Positions 1,034 through 7,012 of a stretch of DNA of 64,000 nucleotides are shown here, in pieces. Location of the stretch: the NCBI GenBank assembly GCA_011050235.1, contig DRGC01000002.1, forward strand, positions 1 through 64,000. Reading direction: 5' to 3'. The position numbers and the translations under genes are program-made. Numbering within the stretch: the stretch's first letter is position 1; each line of letters opens with the position of its first letter. Source of the DNA: Phycisphaerae bacterium (lineage in GTDB: Bacteria; Planctomycetota; Phycisphaerae; SM23-33). The notes beneath the pieces are model-generated. The model saw only the letters and a program-made list of their open reading frames with translations, did no database searches and was not told the DNA's origin.

Positions 1034-3064
1034 TCAATGTTTCGGCGTCAGCCGAATCACAATCTCCTCATTGGTCGGCATCTTGATATGGTGCTCGCGC
1101 AGGGCTTCGTAGCCTTCGGCGATGACGTCGATGCGGACGTCGCAGGGCGGCAGGCGGGTCTCGTTGGCCCGCCCGTCGGCGTCGGTCCTGGCAGTGTAGC
1201 CGAGGCCCCAGTTGTCAGATGCCGTGGTGATATCCACCCCGGCGCGGGCAATGGGCCGATCCGTCTTCGCGTCCAGCACGCGCACCGTCAGTGTCAGGGG
1301 GACAGCCGCCATCACGTCCAGCGACCGGTCCGGTTTTCCGTTGCGCATAGTTAGGCCTAACCGGTTCATAAATGGCGAGCCGAATACGTCATCGGCCGAA
1401 TTCAAATTCAGGGCAATGTTCCCGTTGGCCGGCAAGAGGAGATGGAATCGGCCGTCCGCTTCCGGCGCGACGGCTTGGCAAAGGTGAATCGCCCCATCGG
1501 GAAATGTCCCTAAGGCCTCGCAGCACACGCGGATCGGCACGGGCCGGTTAGATGCCGGATCGATCACTTGGCCGTAGGCCTCGACCAATTCGCGCGCGTC
1601 GAAGACCATGTGGTCTGTGTCGACATCGAGCGATTGGAAGCCAAAGTAGATGAAGATGCTGCCTTTGTCTTTGGCGGCCAGGTAGAGCGTTGCATCTGCC
1701 GGCAGTCCTCCCAGTTCGAACCGGCCCTGTGGATCGGCATGGGTCGTGATCTCGAACGACTCGAAACTTCTTCCCACCTGACGGACCTGGATCTCGGCTC
1801 CGGCGGCGGGTTGACCGTTGCAGTCGATGACCTCGCCGGTGATGGTGCGCCCGCGCTCGAGCCGGATCGTCAGCGGCTGATCTGACGGTACGGCGACGGC
1901 CTCCAGTCTCGTCGACGTCCACCTGGGGTGACGAACAACGAGGTGATGAGGACGACTGCGCAGACCTTTCAACGTGAATCGACCATCCGACCCGGTGGTT
2001 GTGACCTTCGATGTCCCATTGCCCCAGGTCTGGTCGCTGAATTCATCCGGGTCGCACTTGCGGCCTGCGAGAACGGTAGCTGCGTCCACAGGTTGTCCGG
2101 TTTCGGCGCACAGCACCCGGCCGCTCAGGCTGTCGCCACGGCCCAGTGGAACGGTGGCCCGGGCGACGCGGCCGTCACGAGCGAGTTTGTCGATGCCGGT
2201 CACCATGTGGTAGATGAAGTCATCGTGCTCGATCGCAGCGATGTACTGATAGCCGTCCGGCATATCCGCGGCCAGGCCTTCAATGCGGCAACGACCTTGA
2301 GCGTCCGTCTTGGGGAAGATCAGGAGGGCGTCGCCCTTTCCGGTCACGTAATCCGTATTGAACGGCCCGCCGGTAAGACCATCGGTTGCGTAAAGTAGGA
2401 CCTCAGCCTCGACGACCGGTAAGCCCTGATCGTCCTGGACAGTCAACTCGACGGCATAGCCCTCTCGAAGCTCAATGTTGAGTTCGTAGCGGTCTCCGTC
2501 GCGCAGCCGCTTCGATGTCGACGGATGCCTATCGTCTTCGTCCACCCCGCCCAGGTGGAACTTGCAGGCGGCGTGGCGACACTGGTAGTGCACCGACAGC
2601 AGATCAGCGCCTGTCCAGGCCAGATCGCATTGGTATCGGCCGTCCGCATCCGTCCGCACGCAGGAGTAGGCGTGGTGGATGTCAATAGCGCCGACCAGTT
2701 CGACCCGGACTTCGGCATCTTCGATGGGGCGCCCGCCATCCTTTGCCGTCACCCGGCCGAACACAACTGCGGAGAAGGGCTCGATCGCTAAAACATTGTC
2801 GACGTGTTTCTTCAGCGCCGCCCAGCTTTCGAAGCCGTAATCCAAGGCCAGAGCGAACTGGGCATCGTTGAGGGCGAGCCCGGCCGAGAGGATATCATCG
2901 TCGGAGGCGTCTGCGTATCGGCTGAGAAGGCGGAGCGTCGGGCACACGCTTGCGTCGCCTGCCTTGTGGGCGGCCAGCAGGCGTTTGGCTTGCTTCTTGA
3001 GAGCTTCGAGCGTGGGATGAGCGGGCAGGCTGCGACGGGGATTGGGAGACGGTTGAGGGGTCAT
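1034..3064 (-). CDS. Multi-repeat carboxypeptidase-regulatory-like protein with N-terminal ankyrin-associated helical domain (paralog A)
   Basis: The product has 676 residues. I chose ATG 3064 because GGAAAGGAAGG lies 6-7 bases upstream; an open frame extends further but lacks such a site. Residues about 15-85 form a helical module (EALKKQAKRLLAAH ... DYGFESWAALKKHV) that I know mainly from the N-termini of bacterial ankyrin-repeat proteins. The rest is a string of about six carboxypeptidase regulatory-like/Ig-like beta repeats, each with a DADGRY, DAQGRC or DGRFTLKGL-type motif and a following G-rich turn. No signal peptide or catalytic domain is visible, so a scaffold or binding role is more likely than an enzyme. 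It is the head of a probable operon with the downstream redoxin gene. A paralog of the same architecture lies at 5018-7012, and both share a conserved upstream element. Function is unknown. Confidence 0.85.
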   Translation of the reverse strand: MTPQPSPNPRRSLPAHPTLEALKKQAKRLLAAHKAGDASVCPTLRLLSRYADASDDDILSAGLALNDAQFALALDYGFESWAALKKHVDNVLAIEPFSAVVFGRVTAKDGGRPIEDAEVRVELVGAIDIHHAYSCVRTDADGRYQCDLAWTGADLLSVHYQCRHAACKFHLGGVDEDDRHPSTSKRLRDGDRYELNIELREGYAVELTVQDDQGLPVVEAEVLLYATDGLTGGPFNTDYVTGKGDALLIFPKTDAQGRCRIEGLAADMPDGYQYIAAIEHDDFIYHMVTGIDKLARDGRVARATVPLGRGDSLSGRVLCAETGQPVDAATVLAGRKCDPDEFSDQTWGNGTSKVTTTGSDGRFTLKGLRSRPHHLVVRHPRWTSTRLEAVAVPSDQPLTIRLERGRTITGEVIDCNGQPAAGAEIQVRQVGRSFESFEITTHADPQGRFELGGLPADATLYLAAKDKGSIFIYFGFQSLDVDTDHMVFDARELVEAYGQVIDPASNRPVPIRVCCEALGTFPDGAIHLCQAVAPEADGRFHLLLPANGNIALNLNSADDVFGSPFMNRLGLTMRNGKPDRSLDVMAAVPLTLTVRVLDAKTDRPIARAGVDITTASDNWGLGYTARTDADGRANETRLPPCDVRIDVIAEGYEALREHHIKMPTNEEIVIRLTPKH

Positions 3065-3195
3065 GGCAGACCTTCCTTTCCAACACGGTCCGGGGCCTGC
3101 ACGCACGGACGGAAAAGAAGGTTCCGATTATATGTGGTTCAAAGTGAAGGTGGCCTGAACCCTTCCCGCAGACCGGGTGGCGGCCTTCAACCGCC
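3065..3195 (-). promoter_or_regulatory. Conserved upstream element A with Shine-Dalgarno-sequestering hairpin
   Basis: Read on the minus strand, the order is: a TGAAGG ... CCTTCA inverted pair enclosing a small CCCG-gtctg-CGGG hairpin, a TTCA(ctt)TGAA element, a TATAAT box (3132-3127), the tract ACCTTCTTTTCC (3122-3111), a GTGCGTGCAGGCCCCGG block, and the ribosome binding tract GGAAAGGAAGGT (3081-3070). The two tracts can pair over 12 bp with one U-G wobble, which would hide the ribosome binding site in an RNA hairpin. The same layout occurs before paralog B (4885-5017). The sequence shows the repeats; regulation of translation is inference. Confidence 0.6.
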
Positions 3196-3221
3196 ACGAG
3201 CATTCTACCGCGCCGCTTCGG

Positions 3222-3959
3222 TTACGCAAGCGCCTTTAGGTACGCCTTCACCGTTGCGTCGAAGCCCATGTGCAGGGCGTCGGCGATGAGGGCGTGGCCG
3301 ATGGAGACTTCCAGGATGTTGGGGACCTGCCGGATGAACGTCGGCAGGTTGTGCAGGTTCAGATCGTGCCCGGCGTTGAGGCCCAGGTTGCACTCGGTGG
3401 CCTTGGCGGCCGCGGCGGCGAAACGCTCAACTTGCTCGGCCGCATCCCCGGCGGCGAAGGCGGCGGCATAGGGCTCGGTGTACAGTTCGATGCGATCGGG
3501 ACCGAGCTTGCCCGCGCGGTCGATCTGCTCGAGATCGGCATCCATGAACAGGCTGCTGCGGATCCCCAGGTCGCGCAGCTCGGCCAGGACGGGCGCGAGG
3601 CGCTCGGCGTCCTTGCTCAGGTCCCAGCCGTGGTCGGAGGTGAACTGGTCCGGCGAGTCCGGCACCATCGTGCACTGGGCGGGCCTGATTCTTCGGATGA
3701 TGTTCAGAAAGCCCGGATAACCGTCGCCTTGGTCAGCGAACGGGTTGCCCTCGATGTTGAACTCCACCGTCAGCATCGCCGCCAGATCATCCACGTCGCT
3801 CGGCCGAATGTGCCGCCGGTCCGGCCGCGGGTGAACGGTAATCCCGTCCGACCCCGCATCAATACACGCCCGCGCCGCCTCGATCACGCTGGGAATACCG
3901 ATGTCGCGGGTATTCCGCAGCAACGCCACCTTGTTGACGTTCACACTCAGCCTGGTCAT
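3222..3959 (-). CDS. pdxJ: Pyridoxine 5'-phosphate synthase PdxJ
   Basis: 245 residues, the normal length for PdxJ. This cytoplasmic TIM-barrel enzyme condenses 1-deoxy-D-xylulose 5-phosphate with 3-amino-2-oxopropyl phosphate to make pyridoxine 5'-phosphate in the DXP-dependent vitamin B6 route. The N-terminal block (LSVNVNKVALLRNTRD), the GITVHPRPDRRHI segment, EFNIEGNPF and the phosphate-binding end (EVSIGHALIADAL) are all characteristic. It starts at ATG 3959. The gene is followed on the same strand by the leader of regulatory-repeat paralog A, and no clear terminator separates them. The gene is complete and nothing looks broken. Confidence 0.96.
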   Translation of the reverse strand: MTRLSVNVNKVALLRNTRDIGIPSVIEAARACIDAGSDGITVHPRPDRRHIRPSDVDDLAAMLTVEFNIEGNPFADQGDGYPGFLNIIRRIRPAQCTMVPDSPDQFTSDHGWDLSKDAERLAPVLAELRDLGIRSSLFMDADLEQIDRAGKLGPDRIELYTEPYAAAFAAGDAAEQVERFAAAAAKATECNLGLNAGHDLNLHNLPTFIRQVPNILEVSIGHALIADALHMGFDATVKAYLKALA

Positions 3960-4043
3960 GGTCCGTTCTCCCTGCGTCTGTAGGGCCGATTAGGTAATCG
4001 ATTGTGCTCCTCGGCGCCACGGAAGGCAAGCCGCCGGAGACGG

Positions 4044-4652
4044 TCAGCGAGTCAGTTCGCCGTGGCGGCTGCCGACAGCGGCGTGGCGGACGGCGACGTG
4101 CGGGTCGGCCAGGGCCTTGTCGCGCTGGGTGTCGGTGAGTTTGCCCCATTGTCGCAGCAGACCCACCGCGGCTTTGCGCTCTCCCCAGTGCTCGGATTCG
4201 AGCATCTCCAGCGCGGCCGGGTCGTCGGCCTCGCCGGCCAGGATCAGGATGCAGAAGCCGTGTCCCTTGCGGGCCATAGTGAACAGGAACTCACGCAATT
4301 GAGGAATGGCCCGAGCGATGGGTGTGCGAATGACCTCCCTGGTGCCAACCTTCTGCCGCTGAGTCGCGGTCACCGGCAACGGTCGATCCGGCACGAACAG
4401 GAAACTGATCAGCGGCATGAGGGCCCGCTCATCGCCGATCTCACACAGGGCCTGGGCGGCCAGCAGGCGCACCGCCTGGCGCTCGTCGGCCAACGCTCTG
4501 TTGAGTGGGTCGACGGCGGGGGCGCCCAACCCCGACAGCTCCCGCACCGCCTTGGCATCGCGGTCCTCGCTCGCGGCGGCCGCATCCAGCAGCGCCCGCA
4601 CCTTGGTCGCGAAGTCCTCGGGAAGCTCTTCTGCCTTGAATGCATCGGTCAT
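4044..4652 (-). CDS. HEAT-repeat protein
   Basis: 202 residues from ATG 4652, which has AAGGGAC about 9 bases upstream; a longer in-frame start would run into the tRNA-like element and is not favoured. The sequence is helical with HEAT-like units, for example GLGAPAVDPLNRALAD, VRLLAAQALCEIGDERALMPLISFL and WGERKAAVGLLRQWG, ending in a PHVAVRHAAV unit. HEAT repeats usually make protein-protein contacts, and the partner cannot be told from sequence. There is no signal peptide and no enzyme motif. The ORF begins 26 bases downstream of the tRNA-like element on the same strand, so that element may sit in its 5' leader. pdxJ follows 84 bases after its stop on the same strand. Confidence 0.8.
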   Translation of the reverse strand: MTDAFKAEELPEDFATKVRALLDAAAASEDRDAKAVRELSGLGAPAVDPLNRALADERQAVRLLAAQALCEIGDERALMPLISFLFVPDRPLPVTATQRQKVGTREVIRTPIARAIPQLREFLFTMARKGHGFCILILAGEADDPAALEMLESEHWGERKAAVGLLRQWGKLTDTQRDKALADPHVAVRHAAVGSRHGELTR

Positions 4653-4678
4653 CGTCGTGGGTCCCTTGCGAATCGAAG

Positions 4679-4748
4679 CAGACGGGGTAGGACTCGAACC
4701 TACACTTGCCGCCGAAGCGGCCGGTCTTTCCATTTAACCTACCCACCC
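4679..4748 (-). tRNA. tRNA-like element with the anticodon loop replaced by a TTCG tetraloop (tRNA-like RNA or degenerate tRNA)
   Basis: On the minus strand the 70 bases fold as a cloverleaf: acceptor GGGTGGG with CCCGTCT (G-C pairs plus three G-U type pairs, including G3-U70), T8A9, D stem GGTT/GACC with loop AAATGGAAA containing the GG pair, G26, an anticodon-position stem GCCGC/GCGGC closed by TTCG, variable AAGT, and a canonical T arm GTAGG-TTCGAGT-CCTAC, then discriminator G. No CCA is encoded. The anticodon arm is three bases too short and has no 7-base loop, so it cannot read a codon as drawn. It may be a tRNA remnant or a tRNA-like structure in the leader of the HEAT-repeat gene. Confidence 0.55.
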
Positions 4749-4799
4749 GTGCACTGCATATATATGTGCCTGAAATCCGTCGCGAATCATGCGAATTCC

Positions 4800-4833
4800 A
4801 AAAAGAAAACGCGGCATCCGTCGAGGACGCCGC
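4800..4833 (-). terminator. Intrinsic terminator on the minus strand with no obvious gene upstream
   Basis: On the minus strand, GCGGCGTCC and GGATGCCGC form a 9-bp stem (one G-U) around TCGAC, followed by GTTTTCTTTTT. This is the same design as the terminator at 7027-7075. On this strand the bases upstream of it (4834-5017) hold only the reverse side of leader B, so its transcript is not obvious. Confidence 0.55.
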
Positions 4834-4884
4834 ACTGGCCGCTGAATATCGATTGACGAAAAGGGGCCGGGGCGATAGACTTCA

Positions 4885-5017
4885 ATCGGCGTTGAAGGAC
4901 GCCTTCCGGTCTGCGGAAAGGGTTAAGGCCACCTTCATTGAAGATCAACAATAACAGGACCTTCTTTTCCCGCTCGTGCGTGCAGGCCCCGGGCAAGTCT
5001 GGAAAGGAAGGTGCACC
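4885..5017 (+). promoter_or_regulatory. Conserved upstream element B with Shine-Dalgarno-sequestering hairpin
   Basis: This is the second copy of the element found at 3065-3195. It has TGAAGG ... CCTTCA enclosing TTCCG-gtctg-CGGAA (one base pair changed in a compensating way compared with copy A), then AATAAC (4950-4955) where copy A has TATAAT, ACCTTCTTTTCC (4959-4970), GTGCGTGCAGGCCCCGG, and GGAAAGGAAGGT (5001-5012), six bases before ATG 5018. The two tracts can pair over 12 bp. About 125 bases are conserved between the copies although the proteins they precede have diverged strongly. Confidence 0.6.
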
Positions 5018-7012
5018 ATGTCTCAATCACTTCCGCCGCACCCCACTGTCGAAGCCCTGAAGAAACAGGCCAAGCAGCTTCTGTCTGCCCAGAGGTCGGG
5101 AGATGCCGGCGCCTGCAGCACGTTAAGGACGCTTCGCCGTTTCGCCGAAGCTCCGGACGCCGACATCCTCGCAGCCACGCTCTCCCTTACCGAAGTCCAG
5201 TTCGCGTTGGCGATGGACTACGGTTTCGAGAACTGGACGGCAATGAAGCAGCGCGTCGAGGCAGGCCCGACCGGGCCGGCGCGGTCGGTTACGGTCTCCG
5301 GCCAAGTGACCAGCGCCGCGACCGATCAGTCAATTGAAGGCGTGGAAGTGCGCGTGCAGGCACAGGCCATGTACCTCACGCCGCTGGCCTACGCCTGCAC
5401 GGTCACCGACGCGGCGGGCAGCTATGAATGCCGCCTCGAATGGAACGGCTCGGATCGGCCGGATGTGCTGGTCCAGTGTCGGCACGAGGCGTTCAAGCTC
5501 CGCTGCATCGATGCGGGCGAGCAAGAGGATAACTCCGATGTACCAAGGCAGCTGACCCCCGGCCAGCGACTCCAGCGAGACGTCCAACTCTCAGAAGGCT
5601 TCACGCTCGAGCTTCGTGTCGAGGACGAAGAGCATCTCCCCGTCGAGGGAGCGGAGGTCACTATCCTGGCTGATGACGGGATGACGGTCAGCCACCGCAG
5701 CTTGCGGGATCACCTGACAGGAACGACGGGCCTGCCTCCTGCCCTTCTGACCGACGCACATGGCCGCCTCCGAATCGAGGGGCTGTCGGCGGCCGTACCC
5801 GATGGCTACCAGTATGTCCTCGAGGTCGATCACAATCAGTACGTCACCCACATGTTGCTCGGCATTGACAAGCTGCCCCGCAAGGGCGCCGTCACTCAGG
5901 TCACGGTGCGTCTCGAGCGAGGCCGGCGCCTGACCGGCCGCATCATTGCCGCCAACACGGACAGACCGATTGAGGGCGCGGAGGTCCGCTATGTGTACTA
6001 TCCCTACGGGATCATCCCGAACGGCCGGCCCAGACCTTGCTGCGAGAAAGCCTTCACCGATCCGCATGGCCATTTCGAACTGGGCCTGCCGCAGGAGATC
6101 GTAGGCCCCCTGACCGTCAGCCACCCCGCGTGGCAATCCGCGGAAGTCATTCTCGGTGACCGATCATTGGCCGAGCCGATCACCATCCAGATGCTCCCCG
6201 GGCATGTTGTCACCGGTCAGGTGCTCGACCGCGATGGCCGACCGGCCGGGGACGCCGAGGTCGTGGCTGTGACAATGGGCGCGCCCCACGGGAAGATTCT
6301 CAACACAGCCCGGACCGATGGGCAGGGACTGTTCAAGCTGGGTGGCCTGCCGGTAGATCAACGCGTGTGGTTGGCGGCCAAGGATGGCGCCGATTCCTAC
6401 GTCTGTTTCGGTGTCAGGGAGGTCCGACCGGGCGAAGACCATGTGGTGCTCGACGGGCGCGAGGTCGTCGAGGTCGATGGCAGCGTGGTGGATGAGGCCG
6501 GCCAGCCGGTGTCGGTTCGGGTCGCCTGCTTTGTCCACGCACCCCTTGACCAGAGCGGGTGCATGCTGTCGAGAGCCAACCCATCGGACCGGCTCGGGCA
6601 CTTCCGGGCGGTGGTCCCCCGACATGGCGGCGTCTTGCTCTCGCTGTCATCTCACGATGACATCTTCAGTTCACCGTTCTTCAACGTCGTCACCGTTACA
6701 ACCCGCGACGGGCGCCTTGACCGCCCACTGACGATCAGGGCCGAGCCAACTTACGAGCAAGCCCTGAGACTCGTAGATGCCGTCGACGGTCAGCCCATTG
6801 CTGAAGCGGACATTACTCTCAGCCCCGTTCACCTGTGGTACGGGATGTGGGGAGGGACCAGCAATGAGGCCGGCACTCTCGTGATCGACCATCTGCCGCC
6901 CGGCGACGCCGAAGTATTTGTCGTAGCCAAGGGATATCAACCCCTCATCGAGCATCCCATAACAGTCCCGACAGGCCAGCCGCACGCGCTTCGACTCACA
7001 CCGAAGGCGTGA
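5018..7012 (+). CDS. Multi-repeat carboxypeptidase-regulatory-like protein with N-terminal ankyrin-associated helical domain (paralog B)
   Basis: 664 residues from ATG 5018, which has GGAAAGGAAGG six to seven bases upstream. It has the same plan as the gene at 1034-3064: an N-terminal helical module (VEALKKQAKQLLSAQ ... MDYGFENWTAMKQRV) and then about six carboxypeptidase regulatory-like repeats (DAAGSYECRL, DAHGRLRIEGL, DPHGHFELGL, DGQGLFKLGGL). No signal peptide, transmembrane segment or catalytic motif is visible. Similarity to paralog A runs end to end, including shared phrases such as VPDGYQY and a terminal LRLTPK, so the two arose by duplication followed by inversion. It appears to be a single-gene unit ending at the terminator hairpin. 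Role unknown; a structural or binding function is the cautious guess. Confidence 0.85.
   Translation: MSQSLPPHPTVEALKKQAKQLLSAQRSGDAGACSTLRTLRRFAEAPDADILAATLSLTEVQFALAMDYGFENWTAMKQRVEAGPTGPARSVTVSGQVTSAATDQSIEGVEVRVQAQAMYLTPLAYACTVTDAAGSYECRLEWNGSDRPDVLVQCRHEAFKLRCIDAGEQEDNSDVPRQLTPGQRLQRDVQLSEGFTLELRVEDEEHLPVEGAEVTILADDGMTVSHRSLRDHLTGTTGLPPALLTDAHGRLRIEGLSAAVPDGYQYVLEVDHNQYVTHMLLGIDKLPRKGAVTQVTVRLERGRRLTGRIIAANTDRPIEGAEVRYVYYPYGIIPNGRPRPCCEKAFTDPHGHFELGLPQEIVGPLTVSHPAWQSAEVILGDRSLAEPITIQMLPGHVVTGQVLDRDGRPAGDAEVVAVTMGAPHGKILNTARTDGQGLFKLGGLPVDQRVWLAAKDGADSYVCFGVREVRPGEDHVVLDGREVVEVDGSVVDEAGQPVSVRVACFVHAPLDQSGCMLSRANPSDRLGHFRAVVPRHGGVLLSLSSHDDIFSSPFFNVVTVTTRDGRLDRPLTIRAEPTYEQALRLVDAVDGQPIAEADITLSPVHLWYGMWGGTSNEAGTLVIDHLPPGDAEVFVVAKGYQPLIEHPITVPTGQPHALRLTPKA

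Follow-up and report, generated by a model that had tools for sequence, protein, structure and literature searches.

The SAM-II, preQ1-II and SAM/SAH kinds of riboswitch are translational platforms that use pseudoknots and sequester the Shine-Dalgarno (SD) sequence. In autogenous ribosomal-protein leaders, the RNA strictly accompanies genes of a single protein family, and structure in the SD region controls translation. ROSE and fourU RNA thermometers hold the SD in a hairpin.

Here we analysed a window of 64,000 nucleotides from a Phycisphaerae bacterium (contig DRGC01000002.1, positions 1 to 64,000), in which a first-pass annotation had described a duplicated control element, copies A and B, upstream of two divergent genes. 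Our analysis confirmed that the observation is real and that it is far larger than had been reported. Three more copies in the genome, a covarying stem beneath the one that hides the SD, a pseudoknot between helices P0 and P1, helix P3 and a kissing contact between loops were all absent from that annotation.

Results

Two leaders in the window precede diverged paralogues

The motifs on which the original description was built (ACCTTCTTTTCC, GGAAAGGAAGGT, GTGCGTGCAGGCCCCGG and the TGAAGG...CCTTCA inverted pair) were found in both copies, placed as claimed, together with the GTCTG-capped hairpin and its compensating change from C-G to T-A. The proteins had been described as diverged and the leaders as kept, and this was also the case: the former are 38% identical, the latter 80%. 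Both leaders have their 3' end at the start codon of a gene encoding CarboxypepD_reg repeats behind a shared N-terminal domain, hereafter the N-domain. A genome search revealed five leader copies, each located 5' of a gene of one paralogous family.

Between the divergent leaders (3222-3959 and 4679-4748, both minus strand) lie pdxJ (pyridoxine 5'-phosphate synthase), a HEAT-repeat gene and a tRNA gene. An in-frame GTG is present inside the P4 loop of both copies (4976-4978, plus strand; 3104-3106, minus strand), from which ORF callers add 14 codons (690- and 678-aa frames). From the alignment of the N-domain and the SD, we favour the ATG codons at 5018 and 3064 as the probable true starts.

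Covariation across 104 leaders resolves two pseudoknots

Two covariance models were used, R1 built from ten sequences and R2 from 37, and anatomy and covariation were established on 104 leaders aligned to R2. The order of elements is the P0 5' strand, the P1 5' strand, the P0 3' strand, P2, two near-invariant A residues, P3, the P1 3' strand, a variable linker, P4 and the start codon. The helices included in the search model, P1 to P4, were paired in 92.8% of cells, with two-sided changes at 28 of 30 pairs. Two-sided changes fill 517 of their cells, whereas shuffles gave 135 and slid versions 55-130. Fitting the alignment to these helices biases the counts toward them, but the margin is very large. 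P1 was paired in 94.8% of cells, with two-sided changes at all five pairs, and P3 in 98.8%.

Five stems covary strongly in this set, in addition to the P0/P1 pseudoknot and the kissing helix. P0, which lies outside the search model, forms at least 4 bp in 103 of the 104 leaders, and none of 500 between-sequence swaps was as good. Since its loop contains a strand of P1, the two helices form a pseudoknot. The kissing helix, also outside the search model, consists of 6-7 bp that join the P2 loop to that of P4, the hairpin hiding the SD. It was paired in 99.8% of 600 cells, with two-sided changes at all six pairs (50 two-sided cells versus 8 in shuffles; 29-54% in slid versions). P2-loop variants such as GUCCGC, GACCCGC, GGCCUGC, GUUUGC and GUCCAC are answered in the P4 loop by GCGGAC, GCGGGUC, GCAGGCC, GCAAAC and GUGGAC, respectively. 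The conserved loop noticed at the outset is real, and this helix accounts for it. Among the aligned genome copies, the inner 5-bp stem beneath the SD stem covaries as well (GCCCG/CGGGC, GUCCG/CGGAC, GCCUG/CAGGC, GCCCA/UGGGC). Several unpaired or junction bases are near-invariant: A36 (97%), A37 (100%), and G18 and C19 (both 100%). The comparative evidence establishes the element as an RNA of ~130 nt, with a predicted fold of seven helices and two pseudoknots (Table 1).

Table 1. Coordinates of the leaders, their promoters and the genes they precede. Window positions throughout, except the last three rows, which are positions within the loci named.
Feature	Position	Strand	Details
Copy B promoter	4853-4881	+	-35 TTGACG 4853-4858; 17-nt spacer; -10 TAGACT 4876-4881
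Copy B leader RNA, start codon included	4885-5020	+	Covariance match 126.9 bits (R1), 112.7 bits (R2)
Copy B P0	4888-4903	+	GGCGT 4888-4892 / ACGCC 4899-4903; swap test, 104 leaders
Copy B P0 loop	4894-4898	+	Site of P1 5' strand GAAGG; pseudoknot
Copy B P1	4894-4936	+	GAAGG 4894-4898 with CCTTC 4932-4936; encloses P2 and P3
Copy B P2 hairpin	4904-4918	+	Kissing 5' strand GGTCTGC 4908-4914
Copy B P3 hairpin	4920-4930	+	GGGTTAAGGCC; weak in copy B
Copy B P4 hairpin	4959-5012	+	ACCTTCTTTTCC 4959-4970 paired with SD strand GGAAAGGAAGGT 5001-5012
Copy B P4 inner stem		+	GCTCG 4972-4976 / CGGGC 4990-4994
Copy B kissing 3' strand, P4 loop	4982-4988	+	GCAGGCC
Gene B	5018-7012	+	664 aa; N-domain (~82 aa) and CarboxypepD_reg repeats
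N-domain, gene B	5018-5263		
Copy A promoter	3202-3229	-	-35 TTGCGT 3229-3224; 16-nt spacer; -10 TAGAAT 3207-3202
Copy A leader RNA, start codon included	3062-3197	-	Covariance match 134.4 bits (R1)
Copy A P0	3179-3195	-	GGCGG 3195-3191 / CCGCC 3183-3179; P1 5' strand GAAGG 3188-3184 inside loop
Copy A P2 hairpin	3165-3177	-	CCCGGTCTGCGGG; kissing strand GGTCTGC 3174-3168
Copy A P3 and P1 3' strand	3146-3162	-	P3 3162-3152; CCTTC 3150-3146
Copy A P4 hairpin	3070-3122	-	ACCTTCTTTTCC 3122-3111 paired with SD strand GGAAAGGAAGGT 3081-3070
Copy A P4 inner stem		-	GTCCG/CGGAC
Copy A kissing strand, P4 loop	3100-3094	-	GCAGGCC
Gene A	1034-3064	-	676 aa; N-domain and CarboxypepD_reg repeats
N-domain, gene A	2795-3034		
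Shortened VOC leader, L233	1295-1494		Plasmid of Rhizobium johnstonii
Shortened VOC leader, L234	1295-1494		Plasmid of Bosea vestrisii
Shortened VOC leader, L235	1295-1494		Plasmid of Phyllobacterium zundukense

The SD strand is held in P4

The SD strand lies inside P4 throughout, and the stem proposed to hide the ribosome site shows very strong covariation in the 104 homologous leaders, which excludes chance. In alphaproteobacterial leaders both P4 strands are wholly different (AACCUUUGUGCA/UGCACGGAGGUU), with the SD pairing kept. The isolated SD hairpins of the window are predicted at -24.2 (B) and -25.3 kcal/mol (A); an equally stable fold was reached by 11 of 200 dinucleotide shuffles for B and by 2 of 200 for A. 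Considered alone, P4 has a mean of -21.7 kcal/mol (range -15 to -29) over a stem of ~12 + 5 bp. The predicted probability of the SD being unpaired has a median of 0.11, versus 0.33 when the upstream part is shuffled. From these comparisons, it is very likely that a structured leader hides the SD, and the leader probably controls translation.

An alternative pairing, in which P1a would capture the anti-SD strand and free the SD, showed no covariation, and 31 of 100 swaps were as good; thus no classical strand-swap switch is visible. The sequence concerned is ACCUUC, which both window copies carry once in P1b and again in P4a.

A conserved promoter places the transcript start at P0

In ~95% of 151 distinct loci, the -10 box of the best sigma70-like promoter lies 1-8 nt 5' of the element (3 nt in copy B), and a -10 box 2-12 nt upstream occurs in 93% of loci versus 15% for shuffled upstream DNA. 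This position predicts that the mRNA begins at P0 and that the element, transcribed in full, constitutes the whole 5' UTR. The first-pass annotation had cautioned that a TATAAT might start the copy A transcript inside the stem. This concern did not hold, as the TATAAT (3127-3132) sits unconserved in the variable linker and the conserved promoter lies upstream of the element. Its reading of the element as a family of translational control leaders is supported, having passed the two tests that could be run computationally, namely transcript start and covariation among homologues.

The RNA is found in many bacterial groups

A DNA search of related genomes extended the element to five or more other genera of the family. 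With R1 it was detected in 37 of the 397 class genomes, and with R2 in many families of Planctomycetota outside the class, the E-values from these short-calibrated models being rough. We also scanned 84,980 species genomes with the N-domain protein pattern alone, using no RNA information, and of the 547 relatives took the 80 with the highest scores; the RNA may be missing more often from N-domain proteins that are more distant. Directly upstream, and ending at the start codon, the RNA was present in 78 of these 80 best loci (R2, 49-86 bits). Of the remaining two, L229 lacks the RNA and L178 retains its 3' part behind an apparent break in the assembly. By record title, the 80 loci represent about ten groups. 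Their proteobacterial members include Bradyrhizobium, Variovorax, Mesorhizobium, Dyella and Methylobacterium, and the remainder come from Acidobacteria, Verrucomicrobia, Poribacteria, Gemmatimonadetes, Chloroflexi, Latescibacteria, Eremiobacterota, Armatimonadota-type lineages, Sorangium and Planctomycetes. No exact match to the core was found in 2.9 million viral contigs, in which viral spread was sought.

The most copies in any genome searched, ten, occur in a Latescibacteria record (G762, the source of L203), each with its own N-domain gene.

The RNA and the N-domain are strictly linked

Ten planctomycete genomes contain 28 copies of the RNA and as many domain genes, paired one to one. In 16 genomes of other groups, an N-domain gene follows all 32 strong RNA matches, two of these genes being recognised only on inspection; the same genomes carry two domain genes of ~210-250 residues without the full RNA, one of them clearly glyoxalase-like (VOC). 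Across the 397 genomes of the class, the RNA occurs in 33, the domain in 30 and both in 29. A degenerate domain is visible in three RNA-only genomes, and the true RNA-only and domain-only cases are G017 and G129, respectively. Within one rhizobial genus (99 genomes), the corresponding counts are 27, 28 and 26. The linkage of RNA and gene is strict, as in an autogenous protein leader. It could also reflect duplication of leader and N-domain as one cassette.

There are exceptions. L046 (1501-1625; G017:C234:7024-7148) has a copy of the 5' domain and a degenerate P4 before a cyclase-like gene without the N-domain; there the SD is apparently free and the kiss is lost. In L273 (G209:C4:67847-67987, minus strand), the RNA, with the kiss ACCCGC/GCGGGU, precedes a first gene that lacks the N-domain, which is found in the second gene of the apparent operon. 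Fusions of the N-domain to a VOC domain have a shortened leader that keeps P1-P3 without P4 and the kissing sequence (Table 1). Another VOC-type leader (L270, near 1021) has CAUCCC as its P2 loop, complementary to a GGGAUG immediately 5' of the start codon. The joint loss of P4 and of the matching P2 loop sequence in VOC-type leaders supports the kissing contact.

The N-domain is constant, whatever follows it

The N-domain comprises ~80 residues (LPxRPxLExLKxQAKxLL...LxDAQxxIAREYGFxSWxxLKxHVE) and remains constant whatever follows it, be it CarboxypepD_reg repeats, ankyrin repeats (31 of 37 proteins scanned) or a sigma54 activator. Its predicted structure has five helices (pLDDT 82.8). It reached no Pfam cut-off and matched no fold in the PDB, and these comparisons revealed no known RNA-binding relative. 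By profile, it weakly resembles Glyoxalase_8 (PF20066) and the NCBIfam entry PRK05973, a DnaB-like helicase family annotated as a DNA helicase, which suggests that small helical domains of this sort may form a wider family. Neither the RNA nor the N-domain could be identified through Rfam, Pfam, NCBIfam, PADLOC or PDB. Rfam 15 returned no family match to any leader tested (E up to 10 for the window and 1-5 for 30 other loci), and in the literature searched (published open-access papers) no motif of this kind linked to Planctomycetes or ankyrin was found.

Discussion

How the leader might work

Our model suggests that transcription would start at the first helix, making the leader a complete, cis-acting 5' UTR. 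P0, P1, P2 and P3 would fold into a compact pseudoknotted 5' domain, and in the separate hairpin P4 the anti-SD strand would pair with the SD sequence. By kissing the P4 loop, the P2 loop would clamp the closed state and keep default translation low. A regulator reaching the 5' domain or the kissing helix could then unlock the clamp or stabilise it, either direction of regulation being compatible with the model. The trigger that we prefer is the N-domain encoded downstream, which may sense feedback by binding the leader of its own mRNA. It emerges first when the protein is made, stays constant while the rest varies and almost never occurs without the RNA. Taken as a whole, a kissing-clamped SD hairpin with this trigger is the best explanation and, in our judgement, somewhat favoured to be right; the N-domain as trigger, considered separately, is a tentative proposal that falls short of probable.

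The main rival to the N-domain as trigger is a metabolite. P0-P3 would then form an aptamer, with a ligand that either stabilises the kiss or releases it, and the N-domain proteins would respond to the same compound. The compact pseudoknotted 5' domain, the near-invariant junction bases beside a translational platform and the wide phylogenetic spread are all riboswitch-like. However, known classes control varied pathway-linked genes, whereas here one N-terminal domain is shared by proteins with unrelated C-terminal parts. The two mutually exclusive conserved pairings of a riboswitch were not found when P1a was paired with the anti-SD strand; other ligand-driven mechanisms may still apply. Given the near one-to-one link to the N-domain, feedback by the protein is no less likely than a small-molecule ligand, and we regard the riboswitch as a serious but rather unlikely account. 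Control might also come in trans, from a small RNA, a general RNA-binding protein or a helicase, or the leader might sense nothing and simply set a fixed low level or protect the mRNA. The strongly closed SD hairpin, the missing switch partner and the fact that the element is predicted to be the entire 5' UTR would all agree with this. Yet two pseudoknots and specific junction bases kept over many phyla exceed what a fixed level needs, and the link to the N-domain would be left unexplained, so that we consider such control doubtful.

A simple thermometer, in which the SD hairpin melts on warming, is unlikely, and we give it very little weight. The SD is indeed sequestered in a hairpin, as such a device demands, but this hairpin is not marginally stable: its mean of -21.7 kcal/mol is reached before the kissing clamp of 6-7 bp is added, an elaborate 5' domain precedes it, and the hosts come from very different habitats. 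It is harder still to believe that the element is not a regulatory RNA at all but an N-terminal coding extension, or DNA recently copied or gene-converted. The GTG in both window copies and the five similar paralogues in one genome could point that way. Against this, compensatory changes extend over many phyla, and a coding extension from the GTG was rejected on the in-frame stops found at most 75 nt upstream of the start codon in 74 of 143 leaders.

The ~130-nt doubly pseudoknotted RNA, absent from Rfam 15, spans Planctomycetota, Acidobacteria, Verrucomicrobia, Poribacteria, Proteobacteria and others, suggesting an undescribed RNA-protein control unit. This points to an uncharacterised layer of control for hundreds of ankyrin and other repeat proteins, and the kiss between sensor loop and SD hairpin provides a clear, testable mechanism. 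The strict partnership raises the question of whether a protein domain can carry its own mRNA lock. It is conceivable, though we would not call it probable, that leader and N-domain travel together as a bacteria-wide module fused to many effectors, with the domain reading its own leader and setting translation. To our knowledge, a general "plug-in" autoregulatory domain with a dedicated mRNA partner would, if true, be the first.

Comparison with known systems

By kind, the leader is an SD-sequestering translational leader, its SD strand being paired with covariation. We file it as neither a riboswitch nor an autogenous protein leader, classes that are defined by ligand and protein binding. Ankyrin and CarboxypepD_reg proteins with a Glyoxalase_8/PRK05973-like N-terminus share the C-terminal repeat families of the linked proteins, and their N-terminal domains resemble the N-domain weakly by profile; the N-domain itself reaches no Pfam cut-off and has no PDB fold match. 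As in ROSE and fourU elements, neither of which matched the leader in Rfam, the SD lies in a hairpin, but the leader is far more stable and has a tertiary clamp and a large conserved 5' domain. With SAM-II, preQ1-II and SAM/SAH riboswitches it has in common the 5' position, a pseudoknotted sensor region and an SD hidden by pairing. It differs from them in that a hairpin loop kisses the loop of the SD-hiding hairpin, and in its ~130 nt and seven helices, its lack of an Rfam match and its genes linked by one N-terminal domain. Like ribosomal-protein leaders, it is strictly linked to one family and predicted to exert control through structure around the SD; in contrast to them, its partner is a non-ribosomal N-terminal domain of 80 aa that is joined to differing C-terminal parts and occurs in several copies per genome.
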